Positions 1-30,988 of a DNA stretch of 30,988 bases are shown here, piece by piece. Position numbers and translations under genes: made by a program. The notes below the pieces were generated by a model that was not told where the DNA came from, made no database searches, and saw nothing but the letters and a program-made list of their open reading frames with translations. Every line of letters starts with the position of its first letter. The first letter of the stretch is position 1. The DNA comes from a virus, in IMG/VR virus record IMGVR_UViG_3300028925_001669, positions 1 to 30,988 of that record. One strand, given 5' to 3'.

Positions 1-327
1 GGAATGATACAATGCTTCACTTGTGGAGTAGTTAGAGGATACAAAGATGGAATGCAAAACGGTCATTTCCAATCTAGGAAACACTTAGCAACAAGATTTG
101 ATGAAGAAAATTGTCAGGTACAGTGTGTAAAATGTAATATGTTTTCTCAGGGAGAACAGTTCAAGTTCGGAATTAATTTAGATACTAAGTATGGAGAAGG
201 TAAAGCAGAGGAATTACAATACTTAGCTAGAACAACTTTAAAGTTAAGCAGGTATGATTATGAAGATAAGATAAGTTATTACGGTACACTTGTTGAAAAG
301 TTAAAAAAAGAAAAAGGAATTCAGTAA
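1..327 (+). CDS. NinG-like recombination protein, 3' part (5' end outside window)
   Basis: The reading frame is open from base 1 and the first ATG in the window (base 4) is internal. Aligned with the full-length copy at 28370, about 25 N-terminal residues are missing to the left. The visible part has a CFTC pair, a conserved MQNGHFQSRKHL stretch, a DEENCQVQC stretch and a second CxxC (CVKC), so it probably binds zinc. This pattern is that of the lambda NinG family, which acts in phage recombination. The lysine-rich C-terminus (LVEKLKKEKGI) is shared with the second copy. The stop lies just before a promoter-like box for the next gene. Confidence 0.75.
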   Translation, partial: GMIQCFTCGVVRGYKDGMQNGHFQSRKHLATRFDEENCQVQCVKCNMFSQGEQFKFGINLDTKYGEGKAEELQYLARTTLKLSRYDYEDKISYYGTLVEKLKKEKGIQ

Positions 328-336
328 CTTTTTTTT

Positions 337-344
337 TAACTTTG
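337..344 (+). promoter_or_regulatory. Bacteroidetes-type -7 box (TAACTTTG), cassette copy 1
   Basis: TAACTTTG matches the Bacteroidetes -7 consensus TAnnTTTG and ends four bases before the ATG at 349. The equivalent box TAAGTTTG sits at the same place before the copy 2 gene (28785-28792). No good -33 TTG is visible at the usual 19-base distance. If used, the transcript would start at or next to the ATG and be leaderless. Confidence 0.45.
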
Positions 345-348
345 GCGT

Positions 349-705
349 ATGACAGAACCAATTTACGCAAATGAAAAACATAAAACAGTAATAGATACCT
401 ACTTAGTTATGTGTCAAGAGTTTGCTAAAGATGTTAGTACAAAAAGTAGATACAATAATTATTTAGAGGTAGTGGAAATTATAATTGAATACCATAATAA
501 TTACGGAGCAGGACAGAGGGAAAACAACTTTTGGGATTGGATGATGATTATACCAATAAATTTAGCAGTAGCAACAAATGGGTTCTTTGCAGGAGTAGAA
601 ACAAAAAGTAATGCAGCAGTAGTAAGAGCGTATCGAATAGTATTAGATGAGCTAACACAGAATACTGTAGATGAAATTGATAAAATAGAAATAATAAATG
701 ACTAG
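349..705 (+). CDS. Conserved phage protein of unknown function (118 aa), cassette copy 1
   Basis: I do not recognise a family. The protein is acidic and mostly helical by composition, with no membrane segment and no signal peptide. It is clearly homologous to the protein at 28796-29152: shared stretches include MTxPIYA at the start, KSRYNNYL, and VATNGFFAG near the middle. The strong conservation of a tryptophan-rich centre followed by an IIPIN stretch suggests a folded domain. Its last codons overlap the start of the sigma-like gene by eight bases, and that pairing is kept in both cassettes. A co-factor or regulator of the sigma-like protein is possible but only an inference from position. 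Confidence 0.7.
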   Translation: MTEPIYANEKHKTVIDTYLVMCQEFAKDVSTKSRYNNYLEVVEIIIEYHNNYGAGQRENNFWDWMMIIPINLAVATNGFFAGVETKSNAAVVRAYRIVLDELTQNTVDEIDKIEIIND

Positions 706-1255
706 TATTTATGTAGAAATATCTAAATTGTCGAGTAAGTTCAGGACTATGGCATACGGATTAACTACAGATGAAAATGAAGTGAATGAAGCAGTACAGG
801 AGCTGATGCTTTATTTCCTACAGATGAACCCTGAAACTTTGAAATCAATTTGGGATAAAGATGGAGTATTAGGAATTACAAAGTATGGAGCAGTAGCATT
901 AAGGAGAGCTTTAACAAGTCCGAGAAGTAACTACTATTATAAATACAAAAAATATTACTCACACATACAAGATTATAATGAGTATGAAGAAGGGGAGCAT
1001 ATAAGGGGAAACCATAAAGGAATACATAACATACCAAATATAAAAGTAGATAACAATCAATGGGTGCAACTAGAAAGCATTGATCAAATATTAGCTAAAG
1101 ATTTCAAATGGTATGATAAAAAAGTATTTGAGCTTTATTACTATGAGGGCAATACTTTGGACTCACTCGCAAAGAAAACAGGAATAAGTAGGAACAGCTT
1201 GTTTACAACAATAGATAAGGTCAGGACTATATTAAAAGAAAAACTGAATGAGTAA
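698..1255 (+). CDS. Sigma-factor-like transcription regulator, cassette copy 1
   Basis: This 185-aa protein has the two-part layout of a small (ECF-like) sigma-70 factor. Residues about 10-75 resemble region 2, including a NEAVQE stretch at 30-35 where sigma factors have a DAVQE/DLVQE helix, followed by an alanine/arginine-rich helix. Residues about 140-183 resemble region 4, with VFELYYYEG followed by a helix-turn-helix (LDSLAKKTGISRNSL, about 154-168). The linker is variable. The paralogue at 29145 has an almost identical region 4. If it is a sigma factor it would direct host RNA polymerase to phage promoters, and the five late motifs in this window are candidates. A DNA-binding regulator that only borrows the region 4 fold is the main alternative. 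Confidence 0.6.
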   Translation: MTSIYVEISKLSSKFRTMAYGLTTDENEVNEAVQELMLYFLQMNPETLKSIWDKDGVLGITKYGAVALRRALTSPRSNYYYKYKKYYSHIQDYNEYEEGEHIRGNHKGIHNIPNIKVDNNQWVQLESIDQILAKDFKWYDKKVFELYYYEGNTLDSLAKKTGISRNSLFTTIDKVRTILKEKLNE

Positions 1256-1655
1256 TTTTTTTACTTCAGATAAAATATACAAAGAAAGAATAAGCATCTG
1301 TAGATCTTGTGTTTATTATTTTAAACCAACAGGTCAATGTAAACGTTGCCTATGTTTCATGAAAGTCAAAGCAAGGATTGCAAACCAAGAGTGCCCTGAA
1401 AAATTTTGGCTAAGCACAAAAGAAGTAGAGGTCATGGAAGTTATACCAAAAGAAATAGTACAAGAGGTTTTATTAGTGTGGGAAGATCTAAAAACAGGAA
1501 GGGCTAAAGACCAAGCGGCTAAAAAGAAAATGATTGAATTATATAATACAATTTACAGTAGTAATTTCTCAACAAGGACAAATTGCAGCTCATGTATAGC
1601 AACCTGTTACAATGGGATAAAAAATATATATGAAGAATACTCAGAAAATAATTAA
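1248..1655 (+). CDS. Cys-rich, probable zinc-binding phage protein (135 aa), copy 1
   Basis: Function unknown. The N-terminal 60 residues hold a cysteine cluster (CRSC, then CKRCLC, then ECP) that looks like a zinc ribbon, ending in a KFW motif. The centre is a charged helix with KTGRAKDQAAKKKMIELYN. The C-terminus has a second cluster, NCSSCIATCYNGI. The protein at 29707 shares all of these cysteines and the KTGRAKDQAAKK stretch. The start overlaps the end of the sigma-like gene by eight bases, an arrangement kept in the second cassette (29707 against the stop at 29714). Conservation of both cysteine clusters makes a structural zinc site likely; a nucleic-acid or protein-interaction role would be a guess. 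Confidence 0.7.
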   Translation: MSNFFTSDKIYKERISICRSCVYYFKPTGQCKRCLCFMKVKARIANQECPEKFWLSTKEVEVMEVIPKEIVQEVLLVWEDLKTGRAKDQAAKKKMIELYNTIYSSNFSTRTNCSSCIATCYNGIKNIYEEYSENN

Positions 1656-1711
1656 TAATAAATACAGGGTAAGACCTAAAAGCATTTAATTTTTCAGAAC
1701 TGAGTAGTAGA

Positions 1712-1733
1712 GGGGGGTTTTCAGATGCCCCCC
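1712..1733 (+). other. G6/C6 hairpin in a gap between genes
   Basis: GGGGGG at 1712-1717 can pair with CCCCCC at 1728-1733 around a ten-base loop. It lies between the Cys-rich gene and the next small gene. No T tract follows, so it is not a classical intrinsic terminator; it could be an RNA stability or pausing element. Such GC runs are rare in this AT-rich sequence. Confidence 0.4.
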
Positions 1734-1753
1734 AATACAATAAACAAAGAAAT

Positions 1754-1897
1754 ATGGAGCAAAAAATACAAAGGGCAGCTTTAATATTATTGATACTAAT
1801 GTTAGTTCTATCACTTGTAATAAAGAACAAAGAAGTAAAAGTAGATGATACAGAGAATACTTGGAAGGGAAACAACGGAATTGAATTTAATGAATAA
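1754..1897 (+). CDS. Small membrane protein (47 aa)
   Basis: A short open frame starting with MEQKIQRA followed by a strongly hydrophobic segment (LILLILMLVLSLVI) and a charged tail. It would be a single-pass membrane protein with the acidic tail on the far side. It sits in the same orientation as its neighbours in an otherwise unexplained stretch. No equivalent is present at this place in cassette copy 2, which has the non-homologous 44-aa frame at 30101 instead. Family unknown. Confidence 0.45.
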   Translation: MEQKIQRAALILLILMLVLSLVIKNKEVKVDDTENTWKGNNGIEFNE

Positions 1898-1930
1898 AAT
1901 AATAAACATGAATAAAAATATAATAGTAAT

Positions 1931-2107
1931 ATGGCCATAGAAAGAACATACAAAACAATTAAATGGATATTGAAAGACAATATTAAAAAAAATGTCAGAA
2001 GTCTTTGGACTTGGAAGGATGATAACTTTACAATGATATATGAAAACTATAGCGGAGATGATAGAATTTATACAAACTCTCAGCTTTTAAAAATTTTAAA
2101 CAAATGA
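1931..2107 (+). CDS. Small conserved phage protein with YKTIKW and LWTW motifs (58 aa), copy 1
   Basis: A 58-aa frame starting at ATG 1931. It is homologous to the protein at 30219-30410: both have a YKTIKW start, a SLWTW/TLWTW motif, a central NFT...YxNY stretch and a C-terminal QLL. This between-copy conservation at protein level is the main evidence that it is a real gene. It is soluble, basic and of unknown function. Its end overlaps the next start by four bases. Confidence 0.65.
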   Translation: MAIERTYKTIKWILKDNIKKNVRSLWTWKDDNFTMIYENYSGDDRIYTNSQLLKILNK

Positions 2108-2283
2108 TTATATTTACAGTACTAGGAATTTTTACAGCAATCTTTTTTGTGGTTATTATTCTAATGAGCATAATAGAAACAAGGATTAAGAACAGAACCA
2201 AAAAACAGTTATTCTATAAAATGGATAAGGTAGTAACCAAAACAGGAGGACTAGAAAATGACAGGATAAATGAAAGACCATAA
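2104..2283 (+). CDS. Small single-pass membrane protein (59 aa)
   Basis: The frame starts at the ATGA overlap with the previous stop. The first 25 residues (MIIFTVLGIFTAIFFVVIIL) form a clear transmembrane helix, followed by a basic, soluble tail (KNRTKKQ). Its end overlaps the start of the DUF3310 gene in another frame by 14 bases. It has no counterpart in cassette copy 2. Function unknown; a membrane-targeting accessory protein is possible. Confidence 0.5.
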   Translation: MIIFTVLGIFTAIFFVVIILMSIIETRIKNRTKKQLFYKMDKVVTKTGGLENDRINERP

Positions 2284-2533
2284 AGTTAATCCTAAAATGC
2301 TATTAAGAAAGGATGAGCTAGACTACAGTAAGAATAAGATTCCTAACTACTACATTGGAAGTCGGTATAAGTATGAAGCAAGGAAGGTAATAGAGGACTT
2401 TGAACTCGGCTATAATACAGGAACGGCTGTAACTTACTTGTTAAGAGCTGAAAGGAAACACGCTAGTCCTGTAGAGTGCATACAGAAAGCTATTAATCAT
2501 TTACAGTTTGAATTAGATAAATTAAAGAAGTGA
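2270..2533 (+). CDS. DUF3310-family protein, copy 1
   Basis: The conserved part (IPNYY, then FELGYNTGTAVTYLLRAERK, then IQKAINHLQFELDKL) matches the layout of DUF3310 proteins, common small phage proteins with a YLxRA...K motif followed by a helix rich in leucine and histidine. Members of this family include the T7 gp1.7-type nucleotide kinase, but most have no assigned role, so I do not claim that activity. The protein at 30394 is its paralogue. Its stop overlaps the GTG start of the methyltransferase gene. Confidence 0.65.
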   Translation: MKDHKVNPKMLLRKDELDYSKNKIPNYYIGSRYKYEARKVIEDFELGYNTGTAVTYLLRAERKHASPVECIQKAINHLQFELDKLKK

Positions 2534-3264
2534 TAGATTTAAGACTAGGCGATTGTTTAGAGGTAATGAAGTCTATACCTGATGCAAGTATTGATGCAAT
2601 CATAACAGACCCTCCTTATGGTACTACTGCGTGTAAATGGGATTCAGTAATAGACTTTGAATTAATGTGGGAGCAACTCAACAGGATAATAAAGCCTAAT
2701 GGAGCAATAGTTTTATTTGGAAGTGAACCATTTAGTTCTGCTTTAAGAATGAGTAATATTAAAAATTATAAGTATGATTGGATATGGCAAAAAAACAGAC
2801 CGTCTCTATTCCAGCATGCAAAAAGAAGACCAATGAAGGATCATGAAAATATATGCGTATTTTACAGTAAGCAAGTGACTTACAATTTAGAGTTAAGAGA
2901 TAAAAAAATTCCTACAAATAATTATAGAAAAAACAAGTCAGGTACTTTCATGAGTGGAGGTTGTGATAACAAAAATCAAATACAAACAAAGACAGGATAC
3001 CCTAGGCAGATAATTAATTGCGGAATGCACAATGTAGGTCAAGTACATCCAACACAAAAACCAATAGCATTAATGGAGTACCTAATAAAAACTTATACAA
3101 ATGAAGGTGAAGCAGTATTAGACTTTACTATGGGTTCAGGAAGTACAGGAGTAGCTGCTAAGAATCTAAACAGAAAGTTTATGGGAATAGAGCAAGAAAC
3201 TGATTACTTTAACATAGCAACAGATAGAATTAACAAGGAAGAAAAACAATTAAAGATATTATGA
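2530..3264 (+). CDS. DNA methyltransferase, N4/N6 type (beta-class order)
   Basis: This 244-aa enzyme would transfer a methyl group from S-adenosylmethionine to an exocyclic amino group of adenine or cytosine. The catalytic motif DPPY is at residues 27-30, an HPTQKP motif is near 173, and the cofactor-binding FTMGSGSTG motif is near 199-207. Catalytic motif before cofactor motif is the beta-class order. The start is a GTG overlapping the previous stop; MIDLRLGDCLEVM is the usual N-terminus of this family and the next ATG would delete it. The target sequence cannot be read from the protein. No cognate restriction gene is adjacent, so it probably protects phage DNA from host nucleases. Confidence 0.9.
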   Translation: MIDLRLGDCLEVMKSIPDASIDAIITDPPYGTTACKWDSVIDFELMWEQLNRIIKPNGAIVLFGSEPFSSALRMSNIKNYKYDWIWQKNRPSLFQHAKRRPMKDHENICVFYSKQVTYNLELRDKKIPTNNYRKNKSGTFMSGGCDNKNQIQTKTGYPRQIINCGMHNVGQVHPTQKPIALMEYLIKTYTNEGEAVLDFTMGSGSTGVAAKNLNRKFMGIEQETDYFNIATDRINKEEKQLKIL

Positions 3265-3509
3265 CACTATACACTTGCAAATGTGGTAACACTAGAGAGC
3301 TAGCGAAAGTAACCATAGTACATAGGGACGGTAATTGGGAAGCAAAGGAATCTGAGTGCGAGTGTGGGTTGTACATGGATAGCGTGCCAACAGAAGGAAT
3401 ACCAACTTTACAGAGAACAGAACCTAGCCTAAGCAAGAATAGAGAAAACTTATGGAAAGGATTTAAAGAAAAAGCTACAGGTACAAGAGGCATCAATGAG
3501 GACTTTTAA
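3261..3509 (+). CDS. Small zinc-ribbon-like protein (82 aa)
   Basis: The N-terminal half has CKCGN and CECG about 30 residues apart, a four-cysteine pattern typical of a zinc ribbon. The C-terminal half is charged and without hydrophobic segments. The start overlaps the methyltransferase stop by four bases (ATGA), so it is translated with that gene. It lies between two methyltransferases, but no link in function can be shown. Family not recognised. Confidence 0.6.
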   Translation: MTLYTCKCGNTRELAKVTIVHRDGNWEAKESECECGLYMDSVPTEGIPTLQRTEPSLSKNRENLWKGFKEKATGTRGINEDF

Positions 3510-3536
3510 ATAAATTACATTAATTTCTATTATATA
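3508..3536 (+). promoter_or_regulatory. Late-type bipartite motif 1 (AAATAAA, 9 bases, TTTCTATTATATA)
   Basis: AAATAAA is at 3508-3514 and TTTCTATTATATA at 3524-3536, with exactly nine bases between. The motif ends two bases before the ATG of the ParB-methyltransferase gene at 3539. It is the first of five copies, each placed before a late gene. The geometry (about -35 and -10) fits a promoter that would give an essentially leaderless message here. Confidence 0.7.
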
Positions 3537-3538
3537 CT

Positions 3539-4660
3539 ATGAAACAACAAGTTAAGATCAGTAAAGTAAAGGGAAACCCAAGCAACCCTAGAATAATTAA
3601 GAATGATAAGTTTAAAAAGCTAGTAAAGTCAATACAAGAATTTCCTGAAATGTTAAAGCTAAGACCTATTGTAGTTGATGAGGACATGATGGTACTAGGT
3701 GGCAATATGAGATTAAAGGCAAGTAAAGAAGCAGGACTATCAGAAGTATGGATAGACATAGCTGAAGGACTTACAGAAGAACAGAAGAAAGAGTTTATAG
3801 TTAAAGACAATGTAGGGTTTGGAGAATGGGAATGGGATATACTAGCAAACGAATGGGATAGCGTACAACTGGCTGAATGGGGTTTAGATGTATGGGAAAA
3901 CCTAGATGATGCAGAACCTGAATCAGGACTTATTGATGATCATGAAATACCTGAAGTAACTGAAAGCATAGTTAAGCGTGGGGATATTTGGCAACTAGGA
4001 GAGCATAGGATAATGTGTGGAGATAGTACAAGCTCAGATGATGTAGAGAAACTAATGAATGGAGAAAAAGCTGATATGGTATTTACAGACCCTCCTTATG
4101 GAATTGCACATAGTGGTAAAGGGATTAAAGGAGCAACTAAAGAAAATGATTTTGGAGAGATATTAGGCGATAGTAATATAAGTGTGGCAAAAGATTGTTT
4201 TAATTTAATAAGTAATCTTTACTCAGATTGCTTACAAGTTTGGTGGGGTGCTAATTATTATTGTCAATCAATACCTAATGGCTTTGGTTGGTTGGTATGG
4301 GATAAAGAAAGAGAAGGAAATACTTTTAGTGGTGCTGAACTAGCTTTTGTAAATAAAGGAGTCAAAGTAGATGTATTTAAACATAGGTGGCACGGAATGA
4401 TTAAAGCAAGTGAGATGGGGGAAAAAAGAGTACACCCAACCCAAAAACCTATTGCTTTAGCTGAATGGTGTTTTGATAATTATGAAGCAGGAAACTTAAT
4501 TTTAGATATATTTTTAGGTAGTGGCTCAACACTAATAGCAGCAGAGAAACTTAATAGAAAATGTTACGGAATGGAGTTAGATGAAAAGTATTGTGATGTA
4601 ATAATAGAAAGATGGGAACAATTTACAGGTAAAAAAGCAATTAAAAATGGAACAGAATAG
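3539..4660 (+). CDS. ParB-like domain fused to a DNA methyltransferase
   Basis: The first 110 residues resemble the ParB/Srx nuclease-like fold: a partner-setting KxxPxNPR-type start, then VLGGNMRLKA at about 52-61, where ParB has GxxR. The rest is an amino-methyltransferase with DPPY at 184-187, HPTQKP near 299 and DIFLGSGST near 323. This fusion is common in phages and mobile elements and often precedes terminase genes. The ParB-like part may help DNA binding; its nuclease activity is not established. The gene has its own late-type promoter motif and overlaps the terminase small-subunit gene by 14 bases, suggesting that methylation is coupled to packaging time. Confidence 0.88.
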   Translation: MKQQVKISKVKGNPSNPRIIKNDKFKKLVKSIQEFPEMLKLRPIVVDEDMMVLGGNMRLKASKEAGLSEVWIDIAEGLTEEQKKEFIVKDNVGFGEWEWDILANEWDSVQLAEWGLDVWENLDDAEPESGLIDDHEIPEVTESIVKRGDIWQLGEHRIMCGDSTSSDDVEKLMNGEKADMVFTDPPYGIAHSGKGIKGATKENDFGEILGDSNISVAKDCFNLISNLYSDCLQVWWGANYYCQSIPNGFGWLVWDKEREGNTFSGAELAFVNKGVKVDVFKHRWHGMIKASEMGEKRVHPTQKPIALAEWCFDNYEAGNLILDIFLGSGSTLIAAEKLNRKCYGMELDEKYCDVIIERWEQFTGKKAIKNGTE

Positions 4661-6407: not shown

Positions 6408-6436
6408 AACTAAATAACAAGTATTTCTATTATATA
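6408..6436 (+). promoter_or_regulatory. Late-type bipartite motif 2
   Basis: AACTAAA (one mismatch to AAATAAA) at 6408-6414, nine bases, then TTTCTATTATATA at 6424-6436. The motif ends nine bases before the ATG at 6446 of the tail-chaperone gene. Spacing is identical to the other four copies. Confidence 0.68.
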
Positions 6437-15567: not shown

Positions 15568-15596
15568 AAATAAACTAATTTAATTTCTATTATATA
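15568..15596 (+). promoter_or_regulatory. Late-type bipartite motif 3
   Basis: AAATAAA at 15568-15574, nine bases, TTTCTATTATATA at 15584-15596, in the gap after the tape measure gene. The ATG of the next gene is at 15611, so a leader of about ten bases is possible. Confidence 0.7.
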
Positions 15597-17202: not shown

Positions 17203-17231
17203 AAATAAATAAATAACTATTCTATTATATT
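17203..17231 (+). promoter_or_regulatory. Late-type bipartite motif 4
   Basis: AAATAAA at 17203-17209, nine bases, then ATTCTATTATATT at 17219-17231, which differs from the consensus at the first and last base. It is followed by TATATAACAA and the scaffold ATG is at 17256, giving a leader of roughly 20 bases. Confidence 0.66.
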
Positions 17232-17255: not shown

Positions 17256-17903
17256 ATGGATTTAAAAAAGCAAATATTAGTAGCACTTGGACTTAATAAA
17301 GAAGAAGTGATGATGGCTTGGCAGTCAAAGCTAGAGGACGGCACTATTGTTGTATCTACGGCAGAAACTTTAGAATCAGGAGTTGATGCTTCAGTTCTCA
17401 CAGAGGACGGAACTACGATACCTTTACCGATTGGAACGTACAAGACAGAGGATGGCTTAACATTCAGAATTGAAGAAGAAGGGGTAGTCGCTGAAGTAAT
17501 GGAAAGTGAAACTGAGGAAAAAGAAGAAGCTTCTGAAGAAGTTGAGGCTGCTGAAGAAGCAGACGTAGCTGATTGGCAGGGAATGGAAAAAAGAATTGAG
17601 AACCTCGAAATAGCGGTCAGTAAACTGAAGGAAGCTAAAGTAGGTGGTGATGATGAGTCAGAAGAAATGGCTGAAGAAACTCCATCAACTAATCCTAAAA
17701 CTATAACAACTAAAGAAGTGAAAGAATTTTCTATTGAAGAATTAAAAGCAGAAAATGAAAAACTTAAAACGGAATTAGCAGAAGCACCTGCTGAAGCTCC
17801 TTTAAATACAAATAAATTTAGCTCAGATAGAAAACCTGCAACTAAATTACAATATAGCAAAATGAGTAAGAACGAGAAGTTTTTACATAACTTATATAAT
17901 TAA
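17256..17903 (+). CDS. Capsid scaffold-like protein
   Basis: A 215-aa, strongly acidic protein directly before the major capsid gene. Residues about 85-108 are a run of glutamate and alanine, 110-127 a coiled coil (EKRIENLEIAVSKLKEAK), 160-178 a second one, and the C-terminus is basic with SKMSKNEKFLHNLYN, the usual capsid-binding helix-loop-helix type end of scaffolds. It lies next to the protease that would remove it. Acidic composition, coiled coils and place support the call; families in this group are highly diverse. It has its own late-type motif. Confidence 0.72.
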   Translation: MDLKKQILVALGLNKEEVMMAWQSKLEDGTIVVSTAETLESGVDASVLTEDGTTIPLPIGTYKTEDGLTFRIEEEGVVAEVMESETEEKEEASEEVEAAEEADVADWQGMEKRIENLEIAVSKLKEAKVGGDDESEEMAEETPSTNPKTITTKEVKEFSIEELKAENEKLKTELAEAPAEAPLNTNKFSSDRKPATKLQYSKMSKNEKFLHNLYN

Positions 17904-17922
17904 CTAAAAAAAATAAATTACT

Positions 17923-18849
17923 ATGGCGTTTACTACGACATCAAACTTCGCTGGAAAAGCCGCTGGTTTTTACATCAGCGCAGCACTTAAACAAGCAGTA
18001 TCACTTGACTATTTAACAGCAATAGAAAACGTGAAATTTAAAAGTAACATACAAAAAATGGATGCGACAGTTACTCCTATCGCAGCCGCAACGTGCGACT
18101 TTACAGGAGCAGGAACACTTGCCCTCACAGAAAAGGTTTTAGAACCTGCGAATCTACAAATTAACTTAGATTTATGTAAAGCGACTTTACTAGATTCTTG
18201 GGAAGCGTTACAAATGAGAGCAGGAGCAGGCGCTCCACCACCTGCAAGTTTTGACGATTACGTTATTTCTTATATGGGGGATATTATCGGACAAGCAACT
18301 GAAAATTCTATCTGGGCAGGAGTAGCAAATGCAGGTGGCGACTTTATCGGCTTCACAGGAGCAGGTGCAGCAGGATGGCTAAGAGCAGGTAATGACGCAA
18401 CAGTTGTTCAAGCAGTCTTAACAGGTGGTGCAGGTGTGGCTCCTGTAGTTGGAACTATTATAGCTGATATGCAAGTAGCACTTGATGCAGTACCTTCAGC
18501 AGTTATTGGGAAAGAGGACTTACATATCTATGTTAATCAAAAGAACTACCAATTATACATCCAAGCTATTTCAGCATTAGGTTACTTAAATGCTTATAAT
18601 ATGCAAGGAGATTATGTACCATTATTTAGTGGAGTAAAAGTAGCAGTTGTTAATGGATTACAAAATGCAGCAATCGTAGTTGCTGAAAAGTCAAATATGT
18701 TTTTCGGAACTGACCTTTTAAGTGACCAAACGCGTATTAACTTGCTGGATATGAGTACTTTAGACGGAAGTGACAATATGAGAATGGTTGCTCGTTATAG
18801 CGCAGGAACTCAGACAGGAGTAGGATCTGATATTGTACTTGTATCATAA
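17923..18849 (+). CDS. Major capsid protein
   Basis: A 308-aa alanine/glycine-rich protein starting MAFTTTSNFAGKAAGFYIS. It has the typical capsid composition, no membrane segment, an ALQMRAGAG/PPPASFDDY stretch near 90-107 that may be the loop region, and a conserved C-terminal part (FSGVKVAVVNGL, then MFFGTDLLSD and MRMVARYSAGTQ) as in HK97-fold capsid proteins of Bacteroidetes phages. Position after protease and scaffold is classic. It is followed by a perfect hairpin at 18862, consistent with very high expression and message protection. Confidence 0.8.
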   Translation: MAFTTTSNFAGKAAGFYISAALKQAVSLDYLTAIENVKFKSNIQKMDATVTPIAAATCDFTGAGTLALTEKVLEPANLQINLDLCKATLLDSWEALQMRAGAGAPPPASFDDYVISYMGDIIGQATENSIWAGVANAGGDFIGFTGAGAAGWLRAGNDATVVQAVLTGGAGVAPVVGTIIADMQVALDAVPSAVIGKEDLHIYVNQKNYQLYIQAISALGYLNAYNMQGDYVPLFSGVKVAVVNGLQNAAIVVAEKSNMFFGTDLLSDQTRINLLDMSTLDGSDNMRMVARYSAGTQTGVGSDIVLVS

Positions 18850-19694: not shown

Positions 19695-19723
19695 AAATAA
19701 ATAAAGGCTTTTTCTATTATATA
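19695..19723 (+). promoter_or_regulatory. Late-type bipartite motif 5
   Basis: AAATAAA at 19695-19701, nine bases, TTTCTATTATATA at 19711-19723, four bases before the ATG at 19728. The next message would again be leaderless or nearly so. It restarts transcription after the terminator at 19501. Confidence 0.7.
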
Positions 19724-24609: not shown

Positions 24610-24627
24610 GTTAATAACTTTGTTTAT
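24610..24627 (+). promoter_or_regulatory. Early repeated element, copy 1 (18 bases; contains TAACTTTG)
   Basis: GTTAATAACTTTGTTTAT at 24610-24627 recurs with one change (C to A) at 25456-25473. It contains a Bacteroidetes -7-like box TAnnTTTG. GTTAAT is found again at 24634 and 24646, so the copies are spaced by 24 and 12 bases. No -33 TTG stands at the proper distance. Either a promoter core or binding sites for a shared regulator. Confidence 0.5.
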
Positions 24628-24643
24628 TATTGTGTTAATATAG

Positions 24644-24673
24644 TTGTTAATTCAAATATTCTTTTTAATTTTG
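24644..24673 (+). promoter_or_regulatory. Host-type early promoter (TTG, 19 bases, TAATTTTG)
   Basis: TTG at 24644-24646 and TAATTTTG at 24666-24673 are separated by exactly 19 bases, the Bacteroidetes primary sigma consensus. Transcription would start near 24680, about 20 bases before the ATG at 24703. The third GTTAAT repeat (24646-24651) overlaps the -33 element, a good position for repression. Confidence 0.75.
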
Positions 24674-25455: not shown

Positions 25456-25478
25456 GTTAATAAATTTGTTTATATTTG
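25456..25478 (+). promoter_or_regulatory. Early repeated element, copy 2, with two -7-like boxes
   Basis: GTTAATAAATTTGTTTAT (25456-25473) differs from the copy at 24610 by one base. TAAATTTG (25461-25468) and TATATTTG (25471-25478) both match TAnnTTTG. The ERF gene starts 49 bases downstream, after a GC-richer leader (GGGAAAGCCGAAGCCC followed by TTTT) that might fold. This likely starts the recombination/replication operon. Confidence 0.5.
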
Positions 25479-28074: not shown

Positions 28075-28383
28075 ATGAAAACAAAAGAAAAAGTAAAGTA
28101 TTGGCTAAAGATGTACCCTGATTTAAGAGATAATGACAATAGACTTTGCTCTAATATATGGGCAGAAGAACTTACTCATATGGAAGGAATAACTCAAGCA
28201 ACACCAATTGTAGAGTTTTTAATGTTATATTCTAAGAATAAATTTACTTCAGCTCCAAGCATTAAAAGGGCAAGGGCAAAGCTACAAGAAGAAGAACCAA
28301 AATACAGAGGAAAAAAATACTACTTAAGAAAAGGAACTTATCAGGATAAATGGCGTAAAGACTTAGGATATGAAAACAATTAG
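28075..28383 (+). CDS. Early protein of unknown function (102 aa)
   Basis: A basic helical protein with KYWLKMYPDLRDNDNRLCSN near the start and SIKRARAKLQEEEPKYRGKK near 63-82, then a basic, tyrosine-rich tail (YYLRKGTYQDKWRKD). The PSIKRARAKLQ part is a probable DNA-contacting helix and is common in phage proteins of this position. Its end overlaps the NinG-like start by 14 bases, so the second cassette is co-translated with the early operon. Confidence 0.62.
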   Translation: MKTKEKVKYWLKMYPDLRDNDNRLCSNIWAEELTHMEGITQATPIVEFLMLYSKNKFTSAPSIKRARAKLQEEEPKYRGKKYYLRKGTYQDKWRKDLGYENN

Positions 28384-28774
28384 TAAACTAAAAAAAGAAC
28401 TAGACACTATCTTTAGTCTTTACATAAGGCTTAGAGAATCAGAAGAAGGGTTAGTACAGTGTTTCACGTGCAACAAGGTCAGTCATTACAAATCAGGAAT
28501 GCAGAATGGACACTTTCAAAGCCGTAAACACTTAACTACAAGATGGGATGAAGAAAATTGTCAAGTACAATGCGTGGGTTGTAATATGTTCAAAGCAGGA
28601 GAACAATATAAATTTGCCATTAACTTAGATGCAAAGTATGGAGAGGGAAAAGCTGAAGAATTACAATTTTTATCTAAAACAATTATGAAAGTTAGCCGTA
28701 TAGATTATGAAGAAAAAATCAGTTATTACAAAGACCTTGTTGAAAAGTTAAAAAAAGAAAAAGGAATTGAGTAA
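28370..28774 (+). CDS. NinG-like recombination protein, full length, copy 2
   Basis: 134 aa. A charged helix (ISKLKKELDTIFSLYIRLRE) precedes the CFTC pair near 32-35, the MQNGHFQSRKHL stretch, DEENCQVQC and CVGCNMF near 72-78, then a LDAKYGEGKAEELQFLS helix. It matches the NinG family, used with ERF/Red-type annealing. Length equals the expected full form and so defines what is missing in copy 1 (about 25 N-terminal residues, outside the window). Its stop lies just before the TAAGTTTG box of the next gene. Confidence 0.78.
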   Translation: MKTISKLKKELDTIFSLYIRLRESEEGLVQCFTCNKVSHYKSGMQNGHFQSRKHLTTRWDEENCQVQCVGCNMFKAGEQYKFAINLDAKYGEGKAEELQFLSKTIMKVSRIDYEEKISYYKDLVEKLKKEKGIE

Positions 28775-28784
28775 ACTTTTATTT

Positions 28785-28792
28785 TAAGTTTG
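28785..28792 (+). promoter_or_regulatory. Bacteroidetes-type -7 box (TAAGTTTG), cassette copy 2
   Basis: TAAGTTTG ends three bases before the ATG at 28796 and corresponds to TAACTTTG at 337-344 in copy 1. A TTG lies at 28767-28769, 15 bases upstream, shorter than the usual 19. Conservation of the box while flanks differ suggests it is used. Confidence 0.5.
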
Positions 28793-28795
28793 CGT

Positions 28796-29152
28796 ATGAC
28801 AAAGCCAATCTACGCAAGCGAGGAACACAGAAATATAATTGAAGCCTATCTTATTATGTGTCAAGAGTTTGCAAAAGAGGTAAGTTCAAAAAGTAGATAC
28901 AATAATTATCTTGATGTGCTAGAAACAATAATTCAATATCATAATGCCTATGGCTCTGGGAGATCTGAAAATAATTGGTACGATTGGCTAGTCATTATTC
29001 CTATTAATACATCAGTAGCAACAAATGGGTTTTTTGCAGGACTTGAAACAAATAAAAACAGAGCTGTAATACGAGCTTACAAGACAGTATTAAATGAATT
29101 AGTAATTGATACAGTAGATAAGATAGACAACTTAGAAGAACCAAGTGAATAA
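28796..29152 (+). CDS. Conserved phage protein of unknown function (118 aa), cassette copy 2
   Basis: Start taken as ATG 28796, which aligns with the copy 1 start (MTKPIYA against MTEPIYA); the upstream TTG at 28790 lies inside the -7 box. Shared segments with copy 1 are MCQEFAKEVS, KSRYNNYLDV, YDWLVIIPIN, VATNGFFAGLET. No family recognised. It overlaps the sigma-like gene by eight bases exactly as in copy 1, which argues for joint function or at least joint expression. Confidence 0.7.
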   Translation: MTKPIYASEEHRNIIEAYLIMCQEFAKEVSSKSRYNNYLDVLETIIQYHNAYGSGRSENNWYDWLVIIPINTSVATNGFFAGLETNKNRAVIRAYKTVLNELVIDTVDKIDNLEEPSE

Positions 29153-29714
29153 AGTTTATATTGAAATATCAAAGCTAAGTGAGAAATTTAGGACTATGTG
29201 TTATGGTATTACTAAAGATAAGGAACAAGTAGATGACGCGGTGCAGGAATGTATGCTTTATTTTTTACAAATGAACCCCGAACAACTAAAAAAAATATAT
29301 GACAAAGATGGCTTAGATGGAATTACTCGCTATGGTGCAGTAGTTCTAAGACGGGCTTTAACAAGTACAAGAAGTCCTTTTTATTATCAGTACAAGAAAT
29401 ACTATACTCATATTGATAGCTTTACAAGCAACGTAACTTATGACGTAATAGAAACTGGGGAAGTAATACCTACTAAGAACCTTTACAATATAGCAGAAGA
29501 ACCTGCTGTTAAGAATTTAAAGTTTGAAAAGCTAGATAGTATCGACTTAGTTCTGAACGATTTATATTGGTATGACCGCAAGGTTTTTGAGCTTTACTAC
29601 TCAGGAGAGACATTAGACTCTTTAGCAAAGAAAACAGGAATAAGTCGTAACAGCTTATTCACTACAATAGACAAAGTAAGAACAATACTTAAAAGAGAAT
29701 TGACAGATGAATAA
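29145..29714 (+). CDS. Sigma-factor-like transcription regulator, cassette copy 2
   Basis: 189 aa, GTG start overlapping the previous stop. Region 2-like part with DDAVQECMLYFLQMNP near 30-45 and a following ITRYGAVVLRRAL helix; a variable linker; region 4-like part with VFELYYSGETLDSLAKKTGI and SRNSLFTTIDKVR. The DAVQE stretch is closer to canonical sigma factors than that of copy 1, and the helix-turn-helix is almost identical in the two copies, so both should read the same upstream DNA element while the region 2 parts differ. Alternative: DNA-binding regulator with sigma-like domains only. Confidence 0.6.
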   Translation: MNKVYIEISKLSEKFRTMCYGITKDKEQVDDAVQECMLYFLQMNPEQLKKIYDKDGLDGITRYGAVVLRRALTSTRSPFYYQYKKYYTHIDSFTSNVTYDVIETGEVIPTKNLYNIAEEPAVKNLKFEKLDSIDLVLNDLYWYDRKVFELYYSGETLDSLAKKTGISRNSLFTTIDKVRTILKRELTDE

Positions 29715-30108
29715 ATTTTTTGTACCTGATGAAGTCTATAATGATAGAATAGCTATCTGTAAGGAATGTATTTATTATTCAAAGACGTTAGGTCAATGTA
29801 AACGGTGTTTATGTTTCGTAAAGTTGAAAGCAAGACTTGCTCCTATGGCTTGTCCACAAAAATTTTGGGATAAGACTACTGAGATGGAAGCTCCTGATGA
29901 CTTGCCACAAGAAATGATAGATGAAATACTTGACTTATGGAAAGACTTAAAAACAGGAAGGGCAAAGGATCAAGCAGCTAAAAAACGAATGATTGAGATT
30001 TACAATACAATCTATAATTCAAATTATGGAACAGGAACTAATTGTGGTTCTTGTATATCAACTTGCTTTGATGGAATTAAAAAACTATATAATAAATACA
30101 ATGACTAA
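29707..30108 (+). CDS. Cys-rich, probable zinc-binding phage protein (133 aa), copy 2
   Basis: Paralogue of the protein at 1248. It has CKECIYYSK, CKRCLCFVK, a PMACPQKFW end of the first cluster, the helix KTGRAKDQAAKKRMIEIYN and the C-terminal NCGSCISTCFDGIKKLY. Both cysteine clusters are kept, so a zinc-binding fold is likely. Its place right after the sigma-like gene in both cassettes, with an eight-base overlap each time, suggests that the two act together. Confidence 0.7.
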   Translation: MNKFFVPDEVYNDRIAICKECIYYSKTLGQCKRCLCFVKLKARLAPMACPQKFWDKTTEMEAPDDLPQEMIDEILDLWKDLKTGRAKDQAAKKRMIEIYNTIYNSNYGTGTNCGSCISTCFDGIKKLYNKYND

Positions 30109-30235
30109 AGTAAAAATGTACTGCCCGAAAACAATGGGAACTTTTAAAATGATGTTCGGTTTTGCACAGCCATTAAACTATACAAAACATTTTAAACCTA
30201 AATTAAAAAAACAAAACAATGACAAGAAACTATAA
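30101..30235 (+). CDS. Small basic protein (44 aa)
   Basis: The frame is open further upstream inside the Cys-rich gene, but the natural start is ATG 30101, which overlaps that gene's stop. The peptide (MTKVKMYCPKTMGTFKMMFG, then FAQPLNYTKHFKP) is basic with a polylysine-like end. It has no homologue at the same place in copy 1. Function unknown. Confidence 0.42.
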   Translation: MTKVKMYCPKTMGTFKMMFGFAQPLNYTKHFKPKLKKQNNDKKL

Positions 30236-30410
30236 AACAATTAAGTGGGTTTTAAAGCAACAAATTGAAAATGCTACTAAAACTCTTTGGACTTGGAGAA
30301 AAGGAAAGAAAGAAAACTTTACTTGTATATATAAAAATTACAATGATGACCTACCGATCTATACTCCTACTCAATTATTAAATGAAATAGAAGATGCCAA
30401 TACCAATTAA
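30219..30410 (+). CDS. Small conserved phage protein with YKTIKW and LWTW motifs (63 aa), copy 2
   Basis: Homologue of the 58-aa protein at 1931: NYKTIKWVLKQQIENATKTL, then WTWRKGKKENFTCIYKNYND and YTPTQLLNEI. Conserved aromatic positions in both copies support a real, folded small protein. Overlaps the DUF3310 start by 17 bases. Function unknown. Confidence 0.65.
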   Translation: MTRNYKTIKWVLKQQIENATKTLWTWRKGKKENFTCIYKNYNDDLPIYTPTQLLNEIEDANTN

Positions 30411-30678
30411 CTACAGAAATACTATGGAAAAAACAGATGATACAATCCCTGAATACTATAAAGGGAAGAACGGATATATGGCAAAAGATGTCATATCTAA
30501 TTTTGAACTAAGTTATAATGTCGGAACAGCTGTCACTTACCTACTAAGAGCAAATAGAAAACACGACACTCCAATAGATGATATTAGAAAGGCTATACAT
30601 CATTTGCACTTTGAGTTAGATGTACTGACTTCAAAGACTAGGACAGGAGCTTTATCACCAACAGGAGTAAGGAAGTAA
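30394..30678 (+). CDS. DUF3310-family protein, copy 2
   Basis: 94 aa. The core (IPEYYKGKNGY, FELSYNVGTAVTYLLRANRK, IRKAIHHLHFELDVL) matches copy 1 and the DUF3310 layout. The N-terminal residues before the core and the C-terminal extension (TSKTRTGALSPTGVRK) differ from copy 1. ATG 30394 overlaps the previous gene; ATG 30424 is a possible alternative start. It is the last gene before the non-coding region. Confidence 0.65.
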   Translation: MPIPINYRNTMEKTDDTIPEYYKGKNGYMAKDVISNFELSYNVGTAVTYLLRANRKHDTPIDDIRKAIHHLHFELDVLTSKTRTGALSPTGVRK

Positions 30679-30930
30679 TAGTGAGTGGCTGTTGGGAGAA
30701 ATAACCTAATATTAATTAAGCGTTTATATTTTTTTTACTACATCCCAACAACTACAAACTAACTATATGCAAATAAATATAATACAGGCGAAACACCCCT
30801 TAAAGAATGTAATTGCATATAATATGTCTTGTTTATTAATCAATTTAAAAGACACATCTGTCACAAAAATAGGTTATAATTGTGACAAAAGAGTAAAGTC
30901 CCTCTCACTAATTATAGGCGAAATAGAATT
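30679..30930 (+). promoter_or_regulatory. Non-coding region with two inverted repeats before the next gene
   Basis: No convincing frame is present in this 252-base stretch. TGTTGGGA (30690-30697) is the reverse complement of TCCCAACA (30743-30750), 45 bases apart, with a T8 run between them. TGTCACAA (30859-30866) is the reverse complement of TTGTGACA (30880-30887), 13 bases apart, about 45 bases before the ATG at 30931. The second is placed like an operator; the first may be a terminator-like or DNA-protein site. Confidence 0.5.
30859..30887 (+). promoter_or_regulatory. Perfect 8-bp inverted repeat, operator-like
   Basis: TGTCACAA, 13 bases, TTGTGACA. A palindromic site of this kind upstream of a start suits a dimeric repressor. 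It does not match the CRP/FNR spacing. The repressor is not in the window. Confidence 0.4.
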
Positions 30931-30988
30931 ATGAAAACAATTACATTAAATTTTAAAAATTGGAACAACGGAGCGTCAGGAGGTAGGC
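30931..30988 (+). CDS. Partial gene at the right edge, function unknown
   Basis: An open frame begins MKTITLNFKNWNNGASGGR and runs off the window. The A-rich upstream region and the inverted repeat before it support a real start. Too short to name. It shows that cassette copy 2 is not followed by the methyltransferase/terminase genes that follow copy 1. Confidence 0.45.
   Translation, partial: MKTITLNFKNWNNGASGGR

Follow-up and report, generated by a model that had tools for sequence, protein, structure and literature searches.

The window analysed here, a complete IMG/VR record of 30,988 bases, carries all of its main genes on the plus strand. Early genes (Erf, SSB and replication) lie at approximately 24.7–28.4 kb and are followed by a cassette encoding NinG, a 118-aa protein, a predicted phage sigma factor and a DUF6171-like protein, which leads into the methyltransferase, terminase and virion genes. 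The sequence-only reading had placed two sigma-like proteins in early-side cassettes, and both open reading frames were recovered, at 698..1255 (+, 185 aa; copy A, with sigma-2 at about nt 698–952 and sigma-4 at about nt 1052–1243) and at 29145..29714 (+, 189 aa; copy B). The codon for Arg76, the residue found below to track a motif base, lies at 923..925 (+) in copy A and 29370..29372 (+) in copy B. The sigma operon opens with the gene for the conserved 118-aa protein (349..705, + and 28790..29152, +, for copies A and B respectively), and the gene 3' of sigma encodes a Cys-rich DUF6171-like protein (1248..1655, + and 29707..30108, +). The sigma genes thus sit between early and late genes and, as described below, under a host-type promoter box, in agreement with the placement proposed earlier.

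Copies A and B are 66% identical at the protein level, and the homologous cassettes at the two ends of the record (1–4117 and 28370–30988) share 70% DNA identity, with 99% matches to different contigs. Contig L278 is 99% identical to window positions 1–4117, whereas its early genes show only ~70% identity with the right end of the window, and contig L005 runs from the right-hand cassette directly into the 3261 gene region. Exactly one sigma gene was present in 26 of 27 near-full-length relatives, the second copy of the 27th being truncated by its contig end. A true duplication of the cassette was not favoured, as a single copy is the rule and L278 matches the left end far better than the right. 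The record is instead probably an opened circular map, in which overlapping ends from two strains were joined in one assembly, with copy B, on the overlapping end of the contig, probably being the second strain's allele. Both genes of the sequence-only reading stand, but two sigma factors per genome are doubtful given the single copy in relatives. As Arg76 is found in both copies, the mechanism proposed below is unaffected by the two-strain interpretation.

Profile comparisons and structure prediction both placed the protein among sigma-70 family members. The NCBIfam model TIGR02937 (sigma70-ECF) matched copy B (E=9e-9, residues 10–186) and copy A (E=6e-6), as well as 62/62 non-redundant relatives (E<=0.01). 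We call the protein ECF-like, since the window copies score under the curated cut-off (35.2 and 25.9 bits against 42.9). The AVQE helix recognized earlier as region 2-like corresponds to residues 32–35 of copy A, with V33, Q34 and E35 invariant in 62 relatives; region 2.2 is the usual core-contact segment of sigma factors. The C-terminal helix-turn-helix, previously described as region 4-like, is likewise genuine and nearly invariant (ISRNS.FTTIDKVR). AlphaFold modelled confident sigma-2 (~1–85) and sigma-4 (~119–182) domains joined by a disordered linker (91–118), with no folded region 1.1 or 3 between the domains of the 185-aa protein, and with a relative domain placement that is unreliable (pTM 0.47). 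The top Foldseek match was the ECF factor SigL within a transcription initiation complex (E=1.7e-4), and all structure matches listed were sigma factors or complexes thereof. The sigma-2 domain superposed on SigR 1h3l (1.9 A, 70 residues) and the sigma-4 domain on 3mzy (1.9 A, 69 residues), the latter also matching 2h27, in which sigma-E region 4 is bound to -35 DNA. Profile comparison with FecI region 4 gave E=9e-7; in hhalign comparisons with E. coli sigma-E and FecI, region 4 alone was aligned and residue 76 was not mapped onto region 2, while PDB sequence searches with the single protein or a profile returned nothing useful. Since a sigma-2 domain with conserved VQE and a sigma-4 domain are both present, the predicted fold is not one devoid of region 2 contacts for core polymerase. 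On these models, the proteins at 698–1255 and 29145–29714 are divergent two-domain sigma-70-family factors.

The conserved neighbours of sigma, the 118-aa and DUF6171-like proteins, were looked at for a cognate anti-sigma gene. Among relatives, the 118-aa protein always adjoins sigma on its 5' side, and the DUF6171-like protein lies directly 3' in nearly all. The 118-aa protein was modelled as a confident four-helix bundle without a significant fold match in the PDB, which gave no grounds for equating it with a known anti-sigma; it may act as an anti-sigma or a co-activator.

The sequence-only reading had referred to a uniform late motif without spelling it out. We identified this motif as TTCTATTATATA, the lower box of a bipartite element, AAMTAAA-N10-TTCTATTATATA, with fixed spacing. 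Exactly five copies of TTCTATTATATA or its T-ending form occur on the plus strand of the window, each with AAMTAAA starting seventeen bases upstream, against a mean of 0 hits in simulated windows (n=200); none with an upstream box was found on the window's minus strand. Each copy lies just upstream of a late gene: late promoter 1 (3508..3536, +) precedes the ParB/methyltransferase-terminase genes; promoter 2 (6408..6436, +) precedes 6446 and the genes leading to the tail region; promoter 3 (15568..15596, +) precedes 15611; promoter 4 (17203..17231, +) precedes 17256 and then 17923, probably the capsid gene; and promoter 5 (19695..19723, +) precedes 19728 and the portal gene. The expected uniform motif was thus confirmed, with the architecture of a promoter and marking late units only. 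In 62 non-redundant sites from relatives, TAAMTAAAT upstream and TTTCTATTATATAnTA as the lower box are both conserved, a constant distance apart, and the bases separating them are less so; the lower-box conservation in this set is by construction, as sites were selected by that box. Across non-redundant lineages, the motif precedes orthologues of 3539 in 78%, 6446 in 92%, 15611 in 77% and both 17256 and 19728 in 100%; overall it was upstream of the five late genes in 191/216 cases, compared with 15/1869 for other genes.

The distance from the late motif to the start codon is about 2–30 bases, often 2–6. Assuming a normal spacing to the transcription start, TATTAT would form the -10 hexamer, which would leave several late mRNAs with little or no leader. 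Only 2–4 bases separate the start codon from the host-type box of the sigma operon (337–344) and from several late motifs (for example at 3525–3541), gaps that suggest leaderless or nearly leaderless mRNAs.

On the early side, host-consensus promoters had been proposed, and this proposal held in part. Promoters of the E. coli type (TTGACA/TATAAT) were rejected, with no clear excess over shuffles, but boxes of the Bacteroidota type were found. The primary sigma of flavobacteria has TAnnTTTG as its -7 box (PMC9723704). This box immediately precedes the sigma operon's opening gene in 37/43 lineages, with both n positions varying, compared with ~3/43 in simulated upstream regions and 79/2001 in the upstream regions of other genes. 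In the window, such boxes directly precede the sigma operon in copy A (TAACTTTG, 337..344, +) and copy B (TAAGTTTG, 28785..28792, +). Two more, TAACTTTG and TAATTTTG, precede the first early gene (24615..24673, +; starting at 24615 and 24666) and another, TATATTTG, the Erf gene (25471..25478, +), these early-operon boxes being conserved less well than that of the sigma operon.

When the viral collection was scanned for this two-box motif, at least 80 loci were returned, and 78 of the 80 matches listed belong to this phage group. Among the matches listed, all group contigs of at least 27 kb encode the sigma factor, which is cut by the contig end in one 25.7 kb contig and lacking from some shorter fragments. 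By terminase, the closest cultured phages are Flavobacterium phage 11b (55%), Cellulophaga phage phi10:1 (52%) and Polaribacter P12002L (37%), and neither sigma nor motif was found in these three phages (50 of 53.7 kb covered for phi10:1). From the nearest cultured terminases and the host-type promoter box we infer a Bacteroidota host, and the group, a very common one of uncultured marine phages, probably infects this phylum. Bacterial and archaeal genomes yielded just two loci, and since both are phage-sized MAG contigs, neither a host nor a prophage was identified. These contigs of the phage group, L165 (PBGL02000003.1) and L166 (PAPR01000004.1), occur in MAGs named Euryarchaeota archaeon and Pseudooceanicola sp., where they are probably misbinned, making the MAG names uninformative on the host.

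Beyond co-occurrence, the sigma protein and the motif change together. Some relatives carry a variant lower box, TTACATTATATA, with the sites within one genome changing together, such that 125 multi-site loci were all CT, 6 all AC, 8 mixed CT/AT and 1 AT. Region 2.4 is part of a long helix, and residue 76 lies in the turn that follows this helix. The sigma proteins of all 202 CT loci (157 distinct proteins) have Arg there, and those of all 31 AC or AT loci have Asn or Tyr; in general, Arg or Lys at this position accompanies C as the third base of the motif, and Asn, Tyr or His accompanies A. The association was also seen in new data, where contigs selected by TTATATTATATA alone contained 13 sigma genes covering residue 76, with 12 Asn, 1 His and 0 Arg. 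Relatives with Lys76 keep the C at two of the sites read, while another late site is degenerate and has lost the motif. Eight multi-site loci with Arg76 mix C and A sites. Three Arg76 phages, L256, L260 and L261, combine two C-type sites with a single A-type site, possibly a transitional or tolerated state.

When 95 sigma proteins were placed in a tree, its well-supported branches required the motif base to have changed three separate times, each on a branch where residue 76 changes too. A sign test on these independent switches gives p=0.25, three events being unable to reach significance, but for a column with three changes placed randomly by branch length the probability of falling on just those three stems is ~3e-6. 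Across 14 other gene families from the same contigs (~2,100 columns; the families with usable columns, including the NinG, 118-aa and DUF6171 neighbours, terminase and tail genes), no column separated the two motif classes, leaving residue 76 of sigma as the sole column that does so. The link between protein and motif, put forward earlier on the grounds that such a phage needs a switch factor, is now backed by comparative sequence evidence from hundreds of relatives, namely co-occurrence and residue–base co-variation in three separate clades.

We therefore favour, with a probability of roughly 87%, the interpretation that the gene product is a late sigma factor of the phage, with sigma-2 and sigma-4 domains as in ECF factors, that would direct the host core polymerase to the late genes. 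Counting against it are the sub-cut-off scores of the window copies, the uncertain domain arrangement, the small number of independent switches, the Arg76 loci that mix C and A sites, the degenerate site of the Lys76 relatives, and the closeness of some late sites to the start codon, which would leave hardly any leader. The best surviving alternative, though improbable, is a sigma-like DNA-binding activator of the ArpU/RinA or Q kind that sits beside the promoter and aids the host holoenzyme without replacing its sigma. Weak matches to phrog_36 (phage transcriptional regulator) and phrog_79 (Q-like) are consistent with such an activator but cover the helix-turn-helix only, whereas the protein keeps a full sigma-2 domain with invariant VQE, the residue tracking the lower box sits in that domain, and the late units are without the host -7 box expected at activator-assisted promoters. 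Very unlikely is a host alternative sigma reading the late motif while the phage protein has another role: flavobacteria do have several ECF sigma factors (PMC9723704), but the described flavobacterial ECF motif has a CGT -10 box (PMC9723704), and the late motif is nearly confined to this phage group among the matches listed, missing from three cultured phages whose hosts belong to the same phylum and co-variant with the phage protein. Equally hard to credit is one of the operon partners as the motif reader or a required co-reader, for although the 118-aa and DUF6171 proteins are both conserved beside sigma, neither has a motif-tracking column and the former, a bundle of helices, matches nothing in the PDB significantly; a helper role for either would not conflict with a late sigma factor.

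For the late sigma factor, we infer the course and timing of transcription from the computed fold, motif, placement, co-occurrence and co-variation. Early in infection, the host primary sigma (Bacteroidota type, TAnnTTTG) would transcribe the early genes together with the small operon of the 118-aa protein, sigma and the DUF6171 protein. The phage sigma would then bind the host core RNA polymerase through region 2.2, with region 4 reading the upstream box AAMTAAA, and region 2.4 and the turn after it reading TTCTATTATATA. Within the lower box, residue 76 would read the third base, Arg/Lys with C and Asn/Tyr/His with A, with Arg76 or Lys76 probably touching the G opposite the C of the motif. 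Five late units would thereby be switched on: methyltransferase-terminase, 6446 and tail, 15611, 17256–17923 and 19728-portal.

The nearest worked example is phage 7-11, whose sigma SaPh711_gp47 uses the host core polymerase at bipartite late promoters before late genes, as proven in vitro, with early genes under the host primary sigma (PMC8948821). The two systems share a phage-coded sigma, bipartite late promoters and host-sigma early genes, a parallel drawn here from comparative genomics, but phage 7-11 is a C3 podophage of an enterobacterial host with the consensus GTAAtg-(16)-aCTA, and no natural specificity switch was reported there. Similarly, phiEco32 has its own sigma, gp36, which serves the middle and late genes from a small number of nearly uniform promoters, but gp36 recognizes a single-box promoter (tAATGTAtA) and has no recognisable region 4, whereas region 4 and an upstream box are present here (PMC8948821, PMC4331800). 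The sigma-2 plus sigma-4 layout is that of ECF sigmas such as E. coli sigma-E, M. tuberculosis SigL and T. tengcongensis RpoE1, from which the present family differs in its AT-rich boxes without a CGT-like -10 and its score under the curated cut-off. In Tt-RpoE1, a region 2.4 residue sets the -12 base preference, as found by mutagenesis (PMC3397946), whereas the specificity position here was found by natural co-variation; our guess is that residue 76 corresponds to the Arg of the DXXR motif. A tblastn search of copy B against 50,697 phage records gave no match, and no description of this sigma was found in the open-licence literature covered. The sigma family, its promoter and the specificity position thus appear undescribed, although phage late sigmas as a kind are already known from phiEco32 and 7-11.

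Overall, it is likely that a previously undescribed late-sigma family controls a very large group of uncultured marine Bacteroidota phages, and that a switch of its promoter specificity has occurred in nature at least three times, through residue 76 (Arg versus Asn/Tyr/His) and a coordinated change of one base across a genome's late promoters. This would provide a transcription programme for a phage group known only from metagenomes, and a Bacteroidota-phage sigma–promoter pair ready for in vitro testing. It would also represent a natural case of co-evolution between a sigma factor and its regulon, in which the late sites of one genome change along with one amino acid, and the sigma–promoter pair might be usable as an orthogonal expression system in Bacteroidota.
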